DNA of 39,634 nucleotides from Synechococcales cyanobacterium S06. Lineage in GTDB: Bacteria > Cyanobacteriota > Cyanobacteriia > Cyanobacteriales > JAABRE01. Positions 17,458-38,980 of the stretch are shown here, piece by piece. Both the position numbers and the translations under genes were made by a program. The stretch covers positions 1 through 39,634 of the forward strand of contig JAABRE010000048.1 in assembly GCA_011391125.1 (NCBI GenBank). The letters are read 5' to 3'. The notes under the pieces are model-generated. The model searched no databases and had not been told where the DNA came from. It worked only from the letters and a program-made list of their open reading frames with translations. Position 1 is the first letter of the stretch. The number at the start of each line of letters is the position of its first letter.

Positions 17458-17751
17458 ATGACTATTCAAGTTAAATCATCTAATTCCCCAGACTTAATTT
17501 CCCTAGAAATTAGTCAACAAGAGCAAGAAAAATTAAGAAAAATTGCCTCCCTTAAAGGTATTAGTATTAATGAGTTTTTGACCCAAATAATTTTAAATGA
17601 AACAAAAAAAATAGATAATAGTTTAATAATTGAGGAAATCAATCTTTCTGAAAAAGATTGGGAAATTGTGACTTCAGCCATAGAAAATCCCCCAGAAATT
17701 AACTCTAAATTAAAACAAGCAATTGAACAATATAAAGAACAATATAAATAA
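17458..17751 (+). CDS. DUF1778 (TacA-type) antitoxin
   Basis: 97-residue antitoxin of the TacA/AtaR/KacA group that pairs with GNAT acetyltransferase toxins. The N-terminal part reads as a ribbon-helix-helix (ISLEISQQEQEKLRKIA, INEFLTQII) that would bind operator DNA. The C-terminal neutralising tail LSEKDWEIVTSAIENPPE is the family hallmark. The start of the toxin gene lies 9 bases after its stop, a typical operon arrangement. The toxin is broken by a MITE (next entry), so this antitoxin is left with no functional partner here, unless it controls other loci. Confidence 0.85.
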   Translation: MTIQVKSSNSPDLISLEISQQEQEKLRKIASLKGISINEFLTQIILNETKKIDNSLIIEEINLSEKDWEIVTSAIENPPEINSKLKQAIEQYKEQYK

Positions 17752-17760
17752 TCAAAAAAT

Positions 17761-18397
17761 ATGGCTTATATTATTTGCTCTATCAATGACAAAAGAGTTA
17801 TCAAAGATAAGTTTGATTGTGGTATTTCTGAATTAAATGAATATCTCAAAAAATATGCTAAACAAAATGATAAAAAGGGTATTGCTAAAACTTGGGTAGC
17901 AATTTTAGACGGGAATAATAACAGAGATATTTTAGGTTATTATGCTATTAGTATGGCCGAGTTAAAACAAGATTCTTTACCCGAAGATTATCGTCAAAAA
18001 TTACCTCGTTATCCCTTACCTGTAATTAAAATTGGCAAATTAGCAGTAGATAAATCTAGGCAAGGGAAAAGATTAGGGGAAACTTTATTAATTAATGCTT
18101 TATAGTAATTCCAATTAAGATGAGAACAGTTGAAAAATAGGTTCGTAGTTGCGCTTTAGCGCTTCTTAGGACTAAAGTCCAACAACAAACTAAAAACTTT
18201 TGTTTAATTTTTATTTGGAATTACTATTATATAGAGGAATACGTTTAGCGGAGGAGATTGGAGTTTATGGTTTTACAGTGGATGCAATTAATGAAAAGGC
18301 AAAAAACTTTTATTTAAACTATGGTTTTATTCCCTTACAAAATAATGAATTATCTTTATTTATTCCTCTCAAAAATTTACAAAAATTGTTGAAATAA
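17761..18397 (+). pseudogene. GNAT toxin (TacT-type) split by a MITE
   Basis: The 5' part (17761-18102) encodes 114 residues of a GNAT acetyltransferase: FDCGISELNEYLKK and, near the end, KLAVDKSRQGKRLGETLLI, the acetyl-CoA-binding motif A. The 3' part from 18230 encodes LAEEIGVYGFTVDAINEKAKNFYLNYGF, the C-terminal GNAT segment with its conserved tyrosine. Between them lies a 124-bp element flanked by a TTA duplication. Removing the element plus one TTA restores an open frame, ALYRGIRLAEE. Intact members acetylate the amino group of charged tRNAs and block translation. The inserted 127 bases shift the frame and bring TAG right after the first part, so the present gene should be dead. Confidence 0.93.
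18103..18226 (-). mobile_element. MITE family A, copy 2, inserted in the GNAT gene
   Basis: 124 bp with perfect terminal repeats TAGTAATTCC / GGAATTACTA, flanked by TTA on both sides (18100-18102, 18227-18229). A 3-bp duplication of TNA form is found with IS5-family (IS1031-group) transposases, so an IS5-like helper is possible; this is inferred only from size and sequence of the duplication. It is the inverse orientation of the copy at 4769. Similar internal palindromes occur at 21734-21778. Confidence 0.88.
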
Positions 18398-24992: not shown

Positions 24993-25304
24993 ATGAACAC
25001 TCAATTAGTTAATTCCCTCGCACAAATTATTTTATCGCTTTCAAAAGAAGAAAGAAGTTTGTTAAACTCACAAATAAACTCAGAAATAAAAGCAAATTCT
25101 GAGTCAGATAATATTGATGAGCAAATTTTGGATTTAGAAAATAAATTAAAATGTTATGAAACTCAATATCAAATGTCATCTCAAGACTTTTATCAAAAGT
25201 TTCACACTGGTGAATTAGGAGATGATATAGATTTTTTTGAATGGAGTGTATTTTATGAAATGTGGTTATCAGGACAACAGGAATTAAAATTTAATCATAA
25301 TTAA
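24993..25304 (+). CDS. Putative antitoxin partner of the DUF6516/TumE-type gene
   Basis: 103 residues, no family named with certainty. It has a helical N-terminal part (NSLAQIILSLSKEERSLLN), a coiled-coil-like stretch IDEQILDLENKLKCYETQY, and a conserved-looking tail QDFYQKFHTGELGDDIDFFEWSVFYEMW. Its stop is one base from the start of the next gene, so they are a coupled pair. Acidic, helical small proteins of this type precede many toxin genes. A TTGACA hexamer stands at 24901, about 90 bases upstream. Confidence 0.65.
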   Translation: MNTQLVNSLAQIILSLSKEERSLLNSQINSEIKANSESDNIDEQILDLENKLKCYETQYQMSSQDFYQKFHTGELGDDIDFFEWSVFYEMWLSGQQELKFNHN

Positions 25305-25305
25305 G

Positions 25306-25695
25306 ATGAATCTTCAAAATTACATTGAAATGATTAAATACAAATTAAATAGCAGTTTAATTATTGATTCTTTTCAAATTATAGATGAAAGAATATTATT
25401 TAATCGAGGTTATTTCCGAGCTAGATTAATTTTAAAAAATGAAGATTTTTTAGAGATTGCTGAATCTTTTACTGTTATTGATAATCGTTTAGTTACTTTA
25501 AGCTATCGTTATCAATGGATGACTGGAAATAAACAACAATTTAAAAAACGCTGGGATAATGTGGAACATTTTCCTGATTTGTCTAACTTTCCCCATCATG
25601 TTCATGTGGGCAATGAATCTGTTGTAAATCCTAGCAAGTCAAGGAATATTTTACAAATTCTGACTTTAATTGAAAATGAGATACAAAATAAGTAA
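25306..25695 (+). CDS. DUF6516/TumE-like toxin family protein
   Basis: 129 residues. Features I recall for this family are present: RARLILKNEDFLEIAESF, SYRYQWM, KKRWDN and FPHHVHV. This family is now treated as the toxin part of a toxin-antitoxin system (TumE). A residue pattern of charged Arg/Trp/His with an aromatic core suggests an RNA-acting fold, but the activity is not established from sequence. Translated right after the preceding gene. The pair lies between near-identical repeat units. Confidence 0.72.
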   Translation: MNLQNYIEMIKYKLNSSLIIDSFQIIDERILFNRGYFRARLILKNEDFLEIAESFTVIDNRLVTLSYRYQWMTGNKQQFKKRWDNVEHFPDLSNFPHHVHVGNESVVNPSKSRNILQILTLIENEIQNK

Positions 25696-27010: not shown

Positions 27011-27235
27011 TACAGTACAATTGATAATAGGAAAAAATGATTAATTTTTTTTTAAGTATAGCATTTTCTACTTTATTTTAAAAGTTAAAGTTAGCTAAAC
27101 TAAGAGTCAAATTTATTCTTTCAGCTTGTTACTTACTTCAATCTTAACAAAGATTAGAATCTCCATTAACTAATGGTTAATTATTAATATATAATAATTG
27201 GATAAACTTTTTTGAATATTTATTATATCGAAAAT

Positions 27236-28297
27236 ATGTTTAAAACTATTGAGATCAAAAATTTACGAGGTATTGCTGAATTAAAGATTAATGATTTGAG
27301 TAAAATCAATGTTTTTGTGGGACCAAATAATTGTGGAAAAACAACTATTTTAGAGTCGATTTTTTTATTACTTGGTATTTCTAATCCCCAAATATCTTTG
27401 CTAATTAATAATCTGAGAGATTTATCGCATTCTGAAAATAATGATTTTCGCTTTAATTTTAGAGATTTTAATTATGAAAATATTATTTCTTTAAAATGTA
27501 GAGATGATCATGATGGTGAAAGATATTTAAAAATTACCCCTATTTTCTCTAATCAAATTATTACCAAAATTGAGCAGAAAAATTATCTTACTAATGAGGA
27601 GCCTTTAAGTACAAATACTTTTAAAGAGGCGATCGGGTTAAATTTTGATTTTCAGAAAAAAAATGATCAGGAAAATTATCATTCTGAATTAAAAATTGAT
27701 CGACTAAATATGCAGGTTTCTATTGATGGTAAATATCAGGAATCTTTAAGGGGAATATTTTTAAATAATAAAACATTATATTCTAGTTTAGTCGAAAAAA
27801 TTGATCAAATTCAAAGGACAAAAAAGAAACAAGAATTAATTGAAATCCTGAAAAAAATTGATCCTAAAGTGGTTGATATAGCTTTATCTCATAATAATTT
27901 AATTTATGTTGATATTGGAATCGAACAAATGATTCCTGTTAATCTTATGGGAGATGGTTTTAAAAAATCTTGTGCAGTAATTTCCCATTTATTAATTTTA
28001 AAAGATGGTTTTCTAATAATAGATGAAATAGAAAATGGCTTACATTATCAAGCTCTTTATATTCTCTGGAAAGCTATTATTGAAGCTTCTAATAAATTTA
28101 ATGTCCAAATATTTCTCTCAACCCATAGTTATGAGGCTATTAAAGTTCTGATTCAAGTAATAGAAAAAAATAAATTTGATCCCAATGATCTAAGGTTATT
28201 ATCTATTCAAAAGTTAAATAATAACGAACATAAATGTTATAACTACAATTTTGATGAACTGGAAGCACATATTAATAGTAATGTGGAAATTAGATAA
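27236..28297 (+). CDS. AAA-family ATPase (AAA_15/OLD-like)
   Basis: 353 residues; ATG 27236 is preferred to a TTG at 27212. ABC/SMC-type ATPase of the overcoming-lysogenisation group. Walker A GPNNCGKT (29-36), a signature-like NLMGDGFKKSCAV, Walker B FLIIDEIENGLH (259-270), and H-loop STHSYEAI with H297 are present. The middle is a variable helical insertion. No TOPRIM domain is fused; instead the next gene, 22 bases later, is a TOPRIM-like DUF3226 protein. A two-gene ATPase plus TOPRIM-like effector is the plan of PARIS (AriA/AriB) and split OLD systems, so a role in phage defence is a reasonable inference. Confidence 0.85.
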   Translation: MFKTIEIKNLRGIAELKINDLSKINVFVGPNNCGKTTILESIFLLLGISNPQISLLINNLRDLSHSENNDFRFNFRDFNYENIISLKCRDDHDGERYLKITPIFSNQIITKIEQKNYLTNEEPLSTNTFKEAIGLNFDFQKKNDQENYHSELKIDRLNMQVSIDGKYQESLRGIFLNNKTLYSSLVEKIDQIQRTKKKQELIEILKKIDPKVVDIALSHNNLIYVDIGIEQMIPVNLMGDGFKKSCAVISHLLILKDGFLIIDEIENGLHYQALYILWKAIIEASNKFNVQIFLSTHSYEAIKVLIQVIEKNKFDPNDLRLLSIQKLNNNEHKCYNYNFDELEAHINSNVEIR

Positions 28298-28319
28298 AAA
28301 ATATTAGGAAAATAGGAAA

Positions 28320-28889
28320 ATGAATTCTCTTTTTGTGGAAGGAAAAGCAGACGAAAAATTTGTATTTGACTTAATTTATTTCTTAAATCCTGAATTCTCA
28401 AATATTGTCAAGATAATTCCCACTAATGGTTTTCAAAATATTAGTAAATTCAAAAATCAAATTGAAAAGACTAAGGATTTTGGTGGTCAAAATTTGATAA
28501 TTTTTGATGCGGATGATAATATAGAGACAAAACAAGATTTAATCGCTAAAATTGCCCATGAATTAAATTTAGAAATAGCAACTTTCTTTTTTCCCAATAA
28601 CAGTGATAATGGCTGTTTAGAAGACTTACTTTCACAGATTATTAATCCCAAACATCAAGGAATTATAGACTGTTTTGAACAATATCAATTGTGTCTCAGT
28701 AAACAGGAAACAAAATATACCTTACCCAATAAAAAAGCGAAAATCTACGCTTATTTAGAAGCCTTATTATCATCTCAAAAATCTGCTCAAATTAAAGAAG
28801 AAAATAGAAATTATTTAGATAGAGAAATTTGGGATTTAGATTCAGAAAATCTCACCCCTTTAAAAAATTTTCTCAATCAAATATTTTAG
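28320..28889 (+). CDS. DUF3226 TOPRIM-like protein
   Basis: 189 residues. TOPRIM-like acidic pattern: E7 in LFVEGKADEKF, D63-A-D65 in IIFDADDN, and SDNGCLEDLL with D96 and E101. These would bind magnesium for nuclease or nucleotidyl chemistry. DUF3226 is grouped with TOPRIM-like folds. Its start follows the ATPase stop by 22 bases with GGAAAATAGGAAA upstream, so one operon is likely. Converges with recQ with only 14 bases between ends. Target unknown. Confidence 0.82.
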   Translation: MNSLFVEGKADEKFVFDLIYFLNPEFSNIVKIIPTNGFQNISKFKNQIEKTKDFGGQNLIIFDADDNIETKQDLIAKIAHELNLEIATFFFPNNSDNGCLEDLLSQIINPKHQGIIDCFEQYQLCLSKQETKYTLPNKKAKIYAYLEALLSSQKSAQIKEENRNYLDREIWDLDSENLTPLKNFLNQIF

Positions 28890-32745: not shown

Positions 32746-32807
32746 TAGGGTGCGTCACACCGAGCAATTATTTAGAGAATGATTAACTATTTATGGTGAC
32801 GCACCTA
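32746..32807. repeat. TAGGGTGCGTCAC/GTGACGCACC hairpin repeat
   Basis: Same family as the subrepeats around 19280 and 20186. It lies between mltA and the helicase gene, and contains the ATG at 32793 that opens the longest frame of the helicase, which is therefore less trustworthy as a start. Confidence 0.65.
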
Positions 32808-32828
32808 ATCACTATTGAATTGAAAAAT

Positions 32829-35450
32829 ATGTTATTTTACCTATCAGATTTAGCCTTAAAAGATTACGCTCAATATACTAAATTTGCGGAACAATGTCTC
32901 GATAAATTGTCTAAGATATTTAACTCTTTTCACGAATTAAAACATCATGAAATTAAGCAAATTAAACGACTAAAATATTATCAACCGACAGTCTGGAGAT
33001 ACCGTCATGGAGATTTCCGTTTAGTATTTACTGCGACATCTAAACCCCAAGAAATAGTCTTAATTCATCGTTTTTTACCTAGAGATATAGTTTATCAAAA
33101 ATTACCAAGATATTTAACCGATAAAATTAGTGAAGAAGATTTAGAAAATTTAGAGATTAAAAATAATCAGGAATATCAGTTACATAATCGTTATTTTAGC
33201 ATCCCATTAACACAGCTTAATAACTCAGAAGAAATTACGGAATATATAACAAAAGGAAACTACTTATTTTCGCCTTGTTTAACCGAAGAACAATTAAAAT
33301 TTGTCAGTAATATTAATAGTTATAACTTTAAAATATATCAAATTCAAGGAGCGGCAGGGACGGGAAAAACAACCTTAGCATTTCAAATAGCAACACAAAC
33401 CTTAAAACAACATGAATCTTATCCCTTAATAATAGTGCCGACAGAATCATTGCAAAATTTTGGCATTAAAACAATGGAAAATAAAGCGAAAGAATTAAAC
33501 AAAGAAATTGCCATTTGTACTAATTTATTAGATACAGAAAATAGTGAATTAGCAATTGTAACAGTAGAAAACTTTTTTAAATTTGCTTCAGGAGACAAGC
33601 AAGATTGTTTAACAAAATTTGAAGCTAATCAAATTATTAATCAATATATTAATAGACAAAATAGCTCACATTTACACGGAATAGATTTATATAATCTTCA
33701 CTTGGGATTAAGACAAAATGATGGTTACATACAAACAGCAAAAGGTAAGATTTCTGAAAGTTATGAAAACAGTATAAATGATCTCAATAAGTATTATGAT
33801 CAACAAAAATTAGCCCTAGCATTTAACTTTGAAAATCGAGATATAATTAGCCAAGCAAAACGCGCATTTGACCACAAAGAAAACGTTTTAAAAAAGCTAA
33901 AAAAAATTAGTCAAGATAAACCTATAAGCTTTATTATAGATGAAGTACAGGATTTATATTGGCAGCAAATGAGACTACTTTTATACTTAGGGAAAAACCA
34001 AGAATCTCCTCAACCATTTGTCATGTTAGGAGATGTTAATCAAGAAATTACTATTTCTGGATTTTCTTGGGCAAATTTTGACCAAAGTTATCTCAATGAA
34101 TTTATTAAAAATGATCACAACAATCAAAATGATAAAGAAAAAAATAACAGATTATTAGACCAAGATAGAGAAAGACATGGACAAAATCAACCCTTAAAAA
34201 ACTTTAGAAATACCATACAAATAGCTAAAGCAGCCCGTTTTATTTTAATAGAAGCTTTTCGAGATAAACTACCAAAAAATAGTAAACACAATTTAGATCC
34301 AGGTAATCCAGAAGAAATCTGTTTTGAAGAAGGAATTGCACCCTTATTAATTAAAGTTAATCAAGAATGGTTAACAACATTTATTGACAAATTAATTAGA
34401 GAAAATACGCAAACAAATAACAGTAAATTTGTCTTTATTGTGAATCAAGAAAGTGACCATTATCAACAAATTAAAGAGAAAATAGACACCTATAAAAAAG
34501 AGATATTATCATTAACAATTGTGCAAGCAAAAGGTCAAGAATTTGACGCTGTAATTTACGTTTCCTTATTTGCTTTTCAAAAAGCACAACCCACAAATCA
34601 TGAAATTCATAAATGGTACACTGCTTTAACTAGAGCGAGACATTTTAGCGTAATTTTACTATTAGAAAATGAGTATAACTGGTTAACCGAGCAAATAACA
34701 GAAGAGCAAATAACAGCACATTTTAACCTCTTAGAAAACCCGAATTTAGAAGACTTAATTCAGCAGGTTTCTGAACAAGGTATTAATATTGTAACTACTC
34801 AACAAATATTACAAAAAATCGCCTTAAATTATGGCGAAAATTGGAGTAACTGGTTACAAGGTCAAGAAATCAAGATACATTTAAGTCAAGAATGTGAAGA
34901 AGAAAATATTTCCTTTTGGGAATTGATTAATTATCTCGAAAATAACGCCCAAGAAATAGTTAATCTTGACTATGAAAATATTAGGGATAATCAATTAAAC
35001 AACCTGTCAGAAAATCTCCCTTTACTTGATAGTTTTGCTTGTATAATTATGATTTTTAAAATAGCCAAAGATAACCAAATATTAAAGGAATTATCGCAAA
35101 AATTATTTAACAAATTAGGAAAACACTTTAAAAAATACCCAGAGGAGTTAGAAAAAGCCTTAAAACAAGTAGAAACACCTATTGCTAAAATTTTACTGTT
35201 AAGATATGCAGGAAAATCATGGAATGCTGCCAATTTAGCTCACCAAAATGGACATGAATTTTTGATTCAAGAACTTGTCACTGATTTAGAAAAGCGAAAA
35301 TTAGTTTACGAAGCTGCTAGAATGAAATATCAGTATTTAAACATAGAACCAGATATCGATTTACCTTTTCCCAAAGTATTAAAACAAAAAGGAGACTTAG
35401 TAGAACTTCTTATTGACGATTTTTTGAAACAATTACCAATTAATAATTAA
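32829..35450 (+). CDS. RelE-like domain fused to SF1 (UvrD-like) helicase
   Basis: 873 residues from ATG 32829; an ATG 36 bases upstream lies in a repeat. Residues about 1-92 read as a RelE/ParE-like toxin fold: SDLALKDYAQ, a central WRYRHGDFRLVFT and EIVLIHRFLPRDIVY, where R/H residues of such toxins sit. Then comes an SF1 helicase: Walker A GAAGTGKTT (174-182), DEVQD (371-375), GDVNQ (401-405), FRNT, KGQEFD (568-573) and YTALTRAR (597-604). The last 270 residues are helical and unassigned. This fusion followed 5 bases later by a coiled-coil gene suggests a two-component system acting on nucleic acid, perhaps defence; function unknown. Confidence 0.85.
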   Translation: MLFYLSDLALKDYAQYTKFAEQCLDKLSKIFNSFHELKHHEIKQIKRLKYYQPTVWRYRHGDFRLVFTATSKPQEIVLIHRFLPRDIVYQKLPRYLTDKISEEDLENLEIKNNQEYQLHNRYFSIPLTQLNNSEEITEYITKGNYLFSPCLTEEQLKFVSNINSYNFKIYQIQGAAGTGKTTLAFQIATQTLKQHESYPLIIVPTESLQNFGIKTMENKAKELNKEIAICTNLLDTENSELAIVTVENFFKFASGDKQDCLTKFEANQIINQYINRQNSSHLHGIDLYNLHLGLRQNDGYIQTAKGKISESYENSINDLNKYYDQQKLALAFNFENRDIISQAKRAFDHKENVLKKLKKISQDKPISFIIDEVQDLYWQQMRLLLYLGKNQESPQPFVMLGDVNQEITISGFSWANFDQSYLNEFIKNDHNNQNDKEKNNRLLDQDRERHGQNQPLKNFRNTIQIAKAARFILIEAFRDKLPKNSKHNLDPGNPEEICFEEGIAPLLIKVNQEWLTTFIDKLIRENTQTNNSKFVFIVNQESDHYQQIKEKIDTYKKEILSLTIVQAKGQEFDAVIYVSLFAFQKAQPTNHEIHKWYTALTRARHFSVILLLENEYNWLTEQITEEQITAHFNLLENPNLEDLIQQVSEQGINIVTTQQILQKIALNYGENWSNWLQGQEIKIHLSQECEEENISFWELINYLENNAQEIVNLDYENIRDNQLNNLSENLPLLDSFACIIMIFKIAKDNQILKELSQKLFNKLGKHFKKYPEELEKALKQVETPIAKILLLRYAGKSWNAANLAHQNGHEFLIQELVTDLEKRKLVYEAARMKYQYLNIEPDIDLPFPKVLKQKGDLVELLIDDFLKQLPINN

Positions 35451-35455
35451 AAACC

Positions 35456-36481
35456 ATGACATTCACCAGTGATACTGATATAATCAGTAAATTACAAGCA
35501 TTAAATAATACTATTAACAACCTTGAGAAAACCTATCAAGGATTGTTAATAGAAGAGAAAAACATAACAGAAAAACAAGAAAAAATTGTCGATAAAATAA
35601 AACAAATTGAAACTTTAAATGAATTAATTAAACAAATTGGAGGTGAGCAAGAATTACAAATATTACTAAGACAAATTCAGGAAATAAGTCCATTTTTAAA
35701 AGATATAGAAAACCAAAAAATTGACATAGAAAATAACATTAAAAGCACTCAAAATCAAATAAATGATTATCAAGAAATAGATGAAAACTTAGCTGATAAA
35801 TTAAAATTAGTTCAAGAAAATATTATTAAATTAGACCAAGATTTAGAGAAAATCGGTGGTTTTGAAGCCTTACAATTGTTATTAGAAAAAACAGTATCGA
35901 CGAAAAAAGAGTTAGAAACATTTTCCGCAAATTTGGAACAAAAATTAACTCAAAAAATAGAGCATGAACTAAGGGAATTTGCGCAAAACTTACTTCAAAA
36001 AATCAAAGAAGAAACCCAGAACAAACCAAGATATGAATTAATAAAATCTCCTGATAATCAGTTAGAAACTAGGATAAAAAGTTTAGAGAAACAAGTAGAA
36101 TACTTAGATAATCAAAATCGTGAACTTACCGAAAAAATAACAAATATACAAGAAAGCACTCCTAATGAAAATCAGCAAGAAACAGGAGATAATTTAACCG
36201 AATTAACTTGGGAAAATATTCTCAAAAAAGAGCCATTAATCGGTATAATTAAAAAATATGCCGAAACTTACCGAATCGAAAAATTATATACAACTACCGC
36301 AGGTCAATTAGTATATGGAATTAAAAGAAGTACCATTCGAATAATTATAATCCTCCAAAATATGAGGGCAAAAAGTATCATTTTACGAGACGAAGATAAG
36401 AGAAAAGAACTTAATTTAACCCCCCAAGAGTCCCATTTTATCTATCAATATATGGACAGTTATATTCAACCCATTAATTAA
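35456..36481 (+). CDS. Coiled-coil protein, partner of the RelE-helicase
   Basis: 341 residues. Residues about 10-235 are strongly heptad-like, rich in Glu, Lys, Gln and Ile/Leu, with two QIGGEQELQILLRQI and KIGGFEALQLLLEK segments that look like an internal duplication. The last 95 residues form a separate domain: LTWENILKKEPLIGIIKKY, AGQLVYGIKRSTIRI, ESHFIYQYMDSYIQP. Translation is likely coupled to the helicase gene (5 bases between stop and start). It may be the scaffold or sensor part of the unit. I recognise no named family. Confidence 0.75.
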   Translation: MTFTSDTDIISKLQALNNTINNLEKTYQGLLIEEKNITEKQEKIVDKIKQIETLNELIKQIGGEQELQILLRQIQEISPFLKDIENQKIDIENNIKSTQNQINDYQEIDENLADKLKLVQENIIKLDQDLEKIGGFEALQLLLEKTVSTKKELETFSANLEQKLTQKIEHELREFAQNLLQKIKEETQNKPRYELIKSPDNQLETRIKSLEKQVEYLDNQNRELTEKITNIQESTPNENQQETGDNLTELTWENILKKEPLIGIIKKYAETYRIEKLYTTTAGQLVYGIKRSTIRIIIILQNMRAKSIILRDEDKRKELNLTPQESHFIYQYMDSYIQPIN

Positions 36482-38303: not shown

Positions 38304-38609
38304 TTAAGCAGAAACTAATTGAAAATTAACCTTCATTTTTAAAGCTGTGGCAATAATATTTAACATCAAAAAAGAATCACCTTCATAATCAGCATTTTCT
38401 AAAGACTCAATAATAGATTCGTCAGTATTAATTAATTTAGCTAATTCTTGAGTCGATAAATTATGTAATTCTTTTAGTTTAAGAATTTCTCTGGATACTT
38501 GATCATCAAGACGCATTTTTTCTAATTCTAATTGACGATCTGGATTATTTTGGTAATAACGATTATAAAGAATTTCTAAACCATCGGAGGTAGATTTTAT
38601 CTTATTCAT
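38304..38609 (-). CDS. XRE-type HTH antitoxin (HigA-like)
   Basis: 101 residues. Helix-turn-helix at the centre: LHNLSTQELAKLINTDESIIESLENADYEGDSF, a typical XRE/Cro motif. N-terminus has a helical arm LEILYNRYYQNNPDRQLELEKMR. Last residues, MKVNFQLVSA, form a strand often found in HigA-type antitoxins. It overlaps the toxin gene by 4 bases and is translated second, the HigBA order. Expected to bind its own promoter and neutralise the partner. Confidence 0.85.
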   Translation of the reverse strand: MNKIKSTSDGLEILYNRYYQNNPDRQLELEKMRLDDQVSREILKLKELHNLSTQELAKLINTDESIIESLENADYEGDSFLMLNIIATALKMKVNFQLVSA

Positions 38610-38980
38610 ATTAACTCCTGAGAATAACTATGTAATTTAGGATTTTGTTCAAATTGAGTTTTATTTTTAATTGCTTGATCAATTTCAGATGAAGAAACTT
38701 GTTTTTCTTTAATTATACCGTGAGAAATAATCACAGCTTGATTTTGAGAGAAAAAATAAAGAATTCGATAATTAATTCCCTGAAAACTAACCCTCAATTC
38801 ATAAATTTTATCCCTCAAAAAGTCAGCTTCTGGTCTTCTTAATTCATGGCCAAATAGTGATAACCTTTCTAATTTAATAAAACATTTAGTTTGTACTTTA
38901 TTAGGAAGTTGATCAAGCCATTCTAGAAGCGGAACTTTCCCTTTTTCATCTTGAGAGAATATAAGTTTTATTTGTGGCAT
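38606..38980 (-). CDS. RelE/ParE superfamily toxin (HigB / Gp49-like)
   Basis: 124 residues. Gp49/HigB signature: PLLEWLDQLPNKVQTKCFIKLERLSLFGHELRRPEADFLRDKIYELRVSFQGINYRILYFF. The conserved arginines and aromatic strand fit a ribosome-dependent mRNA interferase. Toxin-first order with overlapping antitoxin supports HigBA. The start ATG 38980 follows a 14-base gap from the end of a pseudogene. Appears intact. Confidence 0.87.
   Translation of the reverse strand: MPQIKLIFSQDEKGKVPLLEWLDQLPNKVQTKCFIKLERLSLFGHELRRPEADFLRDKIYELRVSFQGINYRILYFFSQNQAVIISHGIIKEKQVSSSEIDQAIKNKTQFEQNPKLHSYSQELI

Follow-up and report, generated by a model that had tools for sequence, protein, structure and literature searches.

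The stretch of DNA considered here (the window) comprises 39,634 nucleotides of contig JAABRE010000048.1 of Synechococcales cyanobacterium S06, and it contains two genes that lie head to tail on the same strand, with 5 bases between the stop of the first and the start of the second. Gene A is predicted to encode a RelE-type domain followed by a superfamily 1 (SF1) helicase and a C-terminal helical domain, while gene B encodes a predicted coiled-coil protein, called the partner in the following (Table 1). The start of gene A is possibly at 32793 or at 32829; the latter is an in-frame ATG (residue 13) and coincides with the beginning of the match to the family profile. The genome to which the window belongs (4.8 Mb) has one match to gene A. 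An earlier note on this DNA had described an N-terminal RelE/ParE-like segment fused to an SF1 helicase, a C-terminus without family assignment and a dedicated coiled-coil partner 5 bases further on, and had proposed to compare the predicted structure of the N-terminus with RelE; the analysis upholds all of these points.

Table 1. Features of the gene pair and of its surroundings (window coordinates; aa, amino acids)
Feature	Position	Strand	Basis
Gene A (885 aa): predicted RelE domain, then SF1 helicase and helical C-terminus	32793..35450	+	Open reading frame, Pfam, profile, model
Predicted RelE-fold domain, residues ~12–105	32826..33107	+	PDB profile matches, AlphaFold2 (AF2) model, structural matches
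R76, aligned with RelE R61; R in 29/29 aligned sequences	33018..33020	+	Hidden Markov model (HMM) alignment
R97, aligned with RelE R81; R in 29/29	33081..33083	+	HMM alignment
Y101, aligned with RelE Y87; Y in 29/29	33093..33095	+	HMM alignment
SF1 (UvrD/HelD-like) helicase core, residues ~161–640	33273..34712	+	Pfam, PDB profile, VIA-align
Walker A GAAGTGKT, residues 186–193; K192 in 29/29	33348..33371	+	Alignment
Walker B DEVQD, residues 383–387; D383, E384, Q386, D387 each in 29/29	33939..33953	+	Alignment
C-terminal, mainly helical domain, residues ~645–885, family-conserved	34725..35447	+	Model; invariant W810, E840, R843
Gene B: coiled-coil partner, 341 aa	35456..36481	+	Open reading frame, partner alignment
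D6..L13..L16 motif at partner N-terminus; all three residues invariant in 26/26 aligned partners	35471..35503	+	Partner alignment
C-terminal ~100 aa of window partner, in place of the hydrophobic tail of other partners	36176..36478	+	
TacA-like antitoxin, then 114-aa gene without assignment	17458-18102	+	PF08681, 1.6e-10
TumE-type toxin gene, preceded by small gene	24993-25692	+	PF20126, 3.8e-18; PADLOC PDC-M44A/B
AbiLi/AbiLii-like abortive infection pair: AAA ATPase and DUF3226 gene	27212-28886	+	PADLOC AbiLi 5.3e-62 (AriA also); AbiLii 1.5e-13
Gp49-type toxin and, as a weak match, a helix-turn-helix gene; 1.8 kb downstream of pair	38307-38980	-	Gp49 1e-18

As a single protein, gene A matches the Pfam family ParE_toxin over residues 17–98 with an E-value of 1.1e-3 and 20.0 bits, below the cut-off of 23, and ParE_toxin is absent among the Pfam families matched at 0.01 by 15 main-clade relatives. 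At E ≤ 0.1, a profile of 30 N-terminal domains, that of the window included, retrieves 11 different PDB sequences, each of which is RelE/YoeB, the best being aRelE (1.7e-6). The AF2 model of residues 1–118 has a predicted local distance difference test score (pLDDT) of 76 and a predicted template modelling score of 0.71. In its comparison by VIA-align the top match is RelE bound to the 70S ribosome (Z 9.4, 89 residues, 2.4 Å), and rows 1–44 of the best 50 are toxins of the RelE, HigB, YoeB, YafQ and ParE types plus ribosome-bound Cami1. Foldseek gives YoeB and RelE in its first rows with E-values of 3.8e-3 and up, and no match at E ≤ 0.001.

The catalytic residues were mapped through an HMM alignment to E. 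coli RelE (K-12 sequence) with 29 aligned full-length gene A sequences. Exchange of R61, R81 or Y87 of RelE for alanine is reported to lower cleavage (PMC2807027), and the counterparts of these three residues are invariant in the family (Table 1). The positions of K52 and K54, at which the K52A and K54A exchanges gave no significant drop in cleavage (PMC2807027), are occupied by R or K in 29/29 and by basic residues in 27/29 sequences, respectively. As judged from alignment and model, the N-terminus of gene A has a RelE fold and keeps the residues most important for cleavage by RelE. A reading as a gyrase-directed ParE toxin was considered and rejected, because the RNase residues are kept in the gene A family; gyrase-inhibiting ParE toxins are said to be without catalytic residues (PMC11980606). 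By Pfam, no RelB-like antitoxin is found among the scanned window neighbours, the only constant neighbour being the coiled-coil gene.

The helicase matches the Pfam families AAA_19 and UvrD_C_2 above their cut-offs. The motifs GAAGTGKT, DEVQD, GDVNQ, NFRN, AKGQEF and YTALTRAR can be read in it, and the presence of motifs I, II, III, V and VI points to the UvrD/HelD group. With the exception of G186, the checked motif residues are kept in 28 or 29 of the 29 sequences. The best PDB profile match is HelD (4.3e-18), UPF1 matching as well, while in VIA-align UvrD comes first (Z 13.0, 397 residues, 5.4 Å), followed lower down by SLFN11 (Z 12.5) and GajB (Z 10.5); sub-threshold matches to Pfam SLFN-g3_helicase occur in 10 of the 15 relatives. 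The model of the whole protein has only a moderate pLDDT (66), and in it the C-terminus is nearly all helix with two 3-residue strands, the pLDDT being 84–92 at residues 801–880 and below 50 at 724–747. In the 25 of 29 Pfam matches listed, no family exceeds its cut-off over these ~240 C-terminal residues. Neither gene A nor its relatives have a Pfam match to CARF among the matches listed, and control of gene A by cyclic oligoadenylate was rejected because no CARF was found.

For gene B, Pfam gives sub-threshold matches only, several of them to coiled-coil families, and the coiled-coil call is based on composition, on weak SMC-type matches and on a published COILS screen that picked Slr7083, a Synechocystis protein discussed below. 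The partners are between 140 and 652 aa long. Of 32 partner rows, 19 have a hydrophobic segment at the C-terminus at KD19 ≥ 1.5, a threshold picked after the values had been seen, and 15 have one at 1.6; the 32 rows consist of 30, in which the fuller L140 stands in for L025, plus L141 and L137, they contain some near duplicates, and L034 is masked. It appears that about half of the partners have a tail resembling a membrane anchor, the window partner being excepted. A search of 59 other genomes with the ~100 residues at the C-terminus of the latter gave no match. The partners at L133, L126/pAQ6 and L043 (Picosynechococcus, Leptolyngbya) end in a tryptophan-rich basic tail and have no hydrophobic segment; such tails are possibly another means of membrane binding.

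A scan of the genome contig collection with the single sequence of gene A found no relative, and a profile was needed to retrieve relatives. The gene A profile (A6) is positive in 15 of 386 genomes of the phylum (E ≤ 1e-30), and the partner-motif profile (A7) picks out the same 15 genomes at E ≤ 3.8e-12, downstream and on the same strand. The distance between the two genes is at most 75 bases in 12 of these carriers; it is 381 bases in G172, 538 in G051 and 1240 in G231. Among the other 371 genomes the best partner-motif match has an E-value of 5.0e-5, and twelve genomes with weak matches between 5.0e-5 and 0.0089 were treated as noise; G185 has a second, weak partner-motif match (1.2e-4). The detection of the carriers G151 and G239 is independent, because neither contributed to the gene A or the partner profile. 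The search with gene A scored the top candidates of each genome (usually two), so that a carrier may have been missed, and the separate partner search, with up to 17 candidates per genome, gave no further carriers. In G231 a stand-alone RelE gene and a small gene (L135:11076-11733) lie between the helicase and the coiled-coil gene, an arrangement that is not present in the close relative G051 (L134).

The relatives in named genomes were taken from the best 80 of 185 related loci, 22 of which (L026–L047), all titled cyanobacteria, were assigned to the family. The partner lies within ~50 bases downstream in 18 of them, the contig ending in the other four. An order-wide search gave 19 further loci. 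In 18 of these the partner follows gene A on the same strand (within ~75 bases in 16, and at ~380–515 in L014 and L013), and in L021 the contig ends. The RelE-type N-terminus is readable in 17 of the 19, the other two being truncated or fragmentary. Gene A was not seen without the partner wherever the sequence continues (18/18 and 18/18 loci, 15/15 genomes), and the partner appears to be obligate as far as tested. The architecture is more than chance, because 9 GTDB families of the phylum contain it, as do named cyanobacteria. In the other 58 of the 80 loci plus two viral loci (60 in all), no match to the RelE profile is found at E ≤ 1e-3, and the fusion is suggested to be absent outside cyanobacteria. 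Two stretches of the viral contig collection match part of the helicase only, and the phage collection, searched with the window protein, gives no match.

Among the genomes listed, each of the genera g5, g6, g9, g10 and g14 contains both carriers and match-free genomes. Among the matches listed in the site comparison, G099 has 219 bp between conserved flanks that in the carrier G193 enclose ~3.7 kb holding the pair, i.e., both genes are missing together from the matched site. The site of the carrier G151 is occupied by other DNA, 1.6 kb in G072 and 14.7 kb in G064 among the matches listed, and in G039 and G048 the flanks are on separate contigs. Gene A is carried by 8 of 72,556 plasmid records, all of them cyanobacterial, and in each of the five that were inspected a partner-like gene adjoins it; one Marinibacterium plasmid record matches residues 1-82 only. 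On the Synechocystis plasmids pSYSA and pSYLA the pair is located within a type III-B CRISPR region, between the TIGR03985/csx3-side genes and the cmr genes, and on pSYLA BREX genes are close to it. The sparsely annotated plasmid of Synechocystis B12 has TIGR03985 and csx18 at the corresponding places, and WYL, methyltransferase, VapBC and other genes adjoin the pair on two Picosynechococcus plasmids. In Synechocystis 6714 (pSYLA) and B12, gene A is a single open reading frame.

The pSYSA partner in Synechocystis 6803 is Slr7083, as given by gene order with sll7078, slr7080 and sll7090 as anchors. Slr7083 has been reported to form net-like filaments in vitro, to be located at the cell periphery and to interact with HmpF in a two-hybrid assay (PMC7002697). 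Deletion of slr7083 in the motile substrain PCC-M reduced twitching and disturbed cytokinesis, while no phenotype is reported for the non-motile strain; the effects were thus seen in one of two substrains, and complementation failed (PMC7002697). The paper mentions a helicase 0 times (PMC7002697). The pairing described here gives this published filament-former of unclear role a genetic partner.

In the window the pair is surrounded by genes for MltA, RecQ, a pyridoxal phosphate enzyme and the Gp49 pair, and conflict genes are indeed found nearby, the earlier note having called the region rich in toxin–antitoxin loci: an AbiLi/AbiLii-like pair and toxin–antitoxin genes of the TumE, TacA and Gp49 types (Table 1). 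At other loci, recurrent neighbours beyond the partner and a response-regulator-like match are shared mostly between close species.

We interpret the pair as a two-gene accessory, mobile module that most likely acts as an anti-invader system, with a probability of about 0.5; a defence role is plausible. This is the best single reading because of the conserved catalytic residues, the motor, the partner, the accessory distribution and the precedent of ArmD, and further points for it are the location of the pair beside type III-B genes on pSYSA and pSYLA and the existence of RelE–CARF fusions. Protein A would be a nucleic-acid motor carrying a RelE-type mRNase, and protein B a coiled-coil scaffold that would oligomerise and bind A, probably via its conserved N-terminus; in about half of the relatives B may also anchor the complex at the membrane. 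Engagement of foreign or abnormal nucleic acid by the helicase would free or place the RelE domain, which would then cleave mRNA at the A site of the ribosome, and translation of the invader or of the cell would halt.

A number of observations weigh against an anti-invader role. An in-frame stop splits gene A on pSYSA of Synechocystis 6803 (L124:14001-16388; pSYSA 76204-78591), and in Picosynechococcus 7002 the gene is annotated as two genes; because of this, gene A is judged dispensable in these two strains. The deletion phenotype of slr7083 counts likewise, because a defence model does not predict defects in motility or division. No trigger or sensor was identified in the pair, the window partner is without the hydrophobic tail, the similarity to ArmD is only distant, and SyCsm6, a CARF–RelE protein of Synechocystis, is reported to have shown no RNase activity in vitro (PMC9676260). 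PADLOC families at 1e-10 number 186 for 96 flanking proteins from 18 loci vs 36 for 96 controls (99 proteins were listed per set and three of each dropped, L135 and L147 being excluded as near duplicates), but the flank matches among the 25 families listed have two members each and are nearly all to methyltransferase models, and an enrichment of defence genes around the pair is thus no more than possible. Finally, many chromosomal copies of the pair sit, as judged by eye, among ordinary-looking genes. The earlier note had held that its reading would be refuted by a predicted structure without a RelE fold, or by helicase homologues regularly found without the coiled-coil gene and in core positions; a RelE fold is predicted and no helicase without the partner was seen where the sequence continues, but ordinary-looking chromosomal surroundings, one half of the second condition, are often present.

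Such surroundings would rather suit a housekeeping surveillance of RNA or ribosomes, in which the RelE fold would be an adaptor to the ribosome or to RNA and a HelD/UPF1-like motor would clear stalled ribosomes or RNA polymerase. The PDB sequence matches of the helicase, with HelD as the closest and UPF1 also present, are consistent with this, but the pair occurs in 15 of 386 genomes only, with carriers and non-carriers in the same genus and copies on plasmids, and the conserved catalytic residues would be needless for an adaptor, so that we regard surveillance as doubtful, though the least so of the alternatives. The RelE domain with its key residues, the strict pairing and the lack of a constant RelB-like neighbour among those seen would also fit an addiction or toxin–antitoxin module with A as the toxin and B as its neutraliser. 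This is improbable, however, since B is encoded after A and its long coiled coil is unlike RelB; the report that non-motile Synechocystis shows no phenotype after deletion of slr7083 (PMC7002697) points the same way, albeit weakly, as A carries the in-frame stop there.

The filament nets, peripheral location and HmpF binding of Slr7083, together with the PCC-M deletion phenotype (PMC7002697), argue for B being a filament-former of pilus-based motility and division, to which A would be ancillary. However, B without A has no strong match in the 386 genomes, so its function should involve A, and the deletion effects, limited as they are to one of two substrains and not complementable (PMC7002697), weaken the case; we therefore rate a cytoskeletal role somewhat lower still. 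A role as accessory effector of type III CRISPR-Cas would agree with the position of the pair on pSYSA and pSYLA, with the corresponding genes in B12 and with the existence of CARF–RelE effectors. It is nevertheless the most improbable of these explanations, as no cas family is present among the Pfam- and PADLOC-scanned window neighbours, inspection by eye revealed none at the remaining chromosomal loci, and the matches listed for the relatives of gene A contain no CARF.

We have also considered a more specific reading, a membrane- or filament-tethered 'bacterial Schlafen', in which a coiled-coil rod of variable length would keep an SF1 motor and an mRNase directed at the ribosome near the cell periphery. 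There, nucleic acid entering from phages or plasmids, or polysomes bound to the membrane, would encounter the complex. This reading is less probable, about as doubtful as surveillance; its probability is slightly reduced by the membrane-like tail being found in about half of the partners and not in most. If true, it would mean that a RelE nuclease is positioned by a separate dedicated scaffold, the 'cytoskeletal' Slr7083 being that scaffold.

Several known systems share parts of this plan. E. coli RelE and archaeal aRelE (PDB 4v7j, 1wmi) have in common with gene A the fold, R61/R81/Y87 and the basic K52/K54 positions, but are stand-alone proteins with a RelB antitoxin, whereas gene A is fused to a helicase and has no constant RelB-like neighbour. 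UvrD/PcrA and HelD, the latter an RNA-polymerase recycling factor, share the SF1 core and are without a RelE domain, the gene A family adding its own C-terminal helical domain. The plan of an RNase plus an SF1 helicase is also that of the vertebrate Schlafens (SLFN11/13/14), which have antiviral and RNase roles; their RNase domain is unrelated to RelE, and the likeness is one of analogy only. In the case of Gabija, the match of GajB to gene A is 1.3e-3 only, and the partner is a coiled coil rather than GajA. The CARF–RelE effectors SyCsm6 and Cami1 show RelE within a multidomain defence protein, with a CARF sensor where gene A has the helicase. ToxM is a RelE-fold toxin linked to the membrane, but the transmembrane segment is in the toxin itself, and the part of the source covered here describes no helicase or coiled-coil partner (PMC11980606). 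That study of multidomain RelE proteins leaves out many families without a recognisable antitoxin, and the word helicase is absent from the same part of its text (PMC11980606).

The closest precedent is ArmD, a RelE–UvrD fusion of the anti-phage system ARMADA II, in which deletion of any of the four genes, or mutation of the Walker A motif of ArmD, abolished protection (PMC12458937). The ArmD of E. coli ATCC 8739 has the same order as gene A, an N-terminal RelE-like domain followed by a UvrD-family SF1 helicase. However, the helicase motifs alone align (1.1e-10 with the gene A profile against this one protein), the best BLASTP match is 31% over 81 aa (2e-5, small database), and the match to the RelE profile of the family is borderline (0.016 for the whole protein, 0.07 for the best domain); because of this, a common origin of the two fusions is not established. 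With 704 aa and a ~140-aa spacer before the helicase, ArmD has no room for the C-terminal helical domain of gene A. It acts together with ArmA (BrxHII-like), ArmB (PglX-like) and ArmC (YprA-like), with no coiled-coil partner, and no such operon surrounds the window pair. The statement of the earlier note that no named defence system has this exact plan must accordingly be modified in that the RelE–UvrD fusion as such is known from ArmD (PMC12458937), though ArmD is distant and without the partner, and we found no description of a RelE–helicase/coiled-coil pair in the open-licence literature. The pair would extend the RelE nuclease–SF1 helicase fusion beyond ARMADA to a compact arrangement of two genes, in which the coiled-coil partner is obligate as far as tested, and pSYLA of Synechocystis 6714 offers gene A as one open frame in a genus with good genetics.

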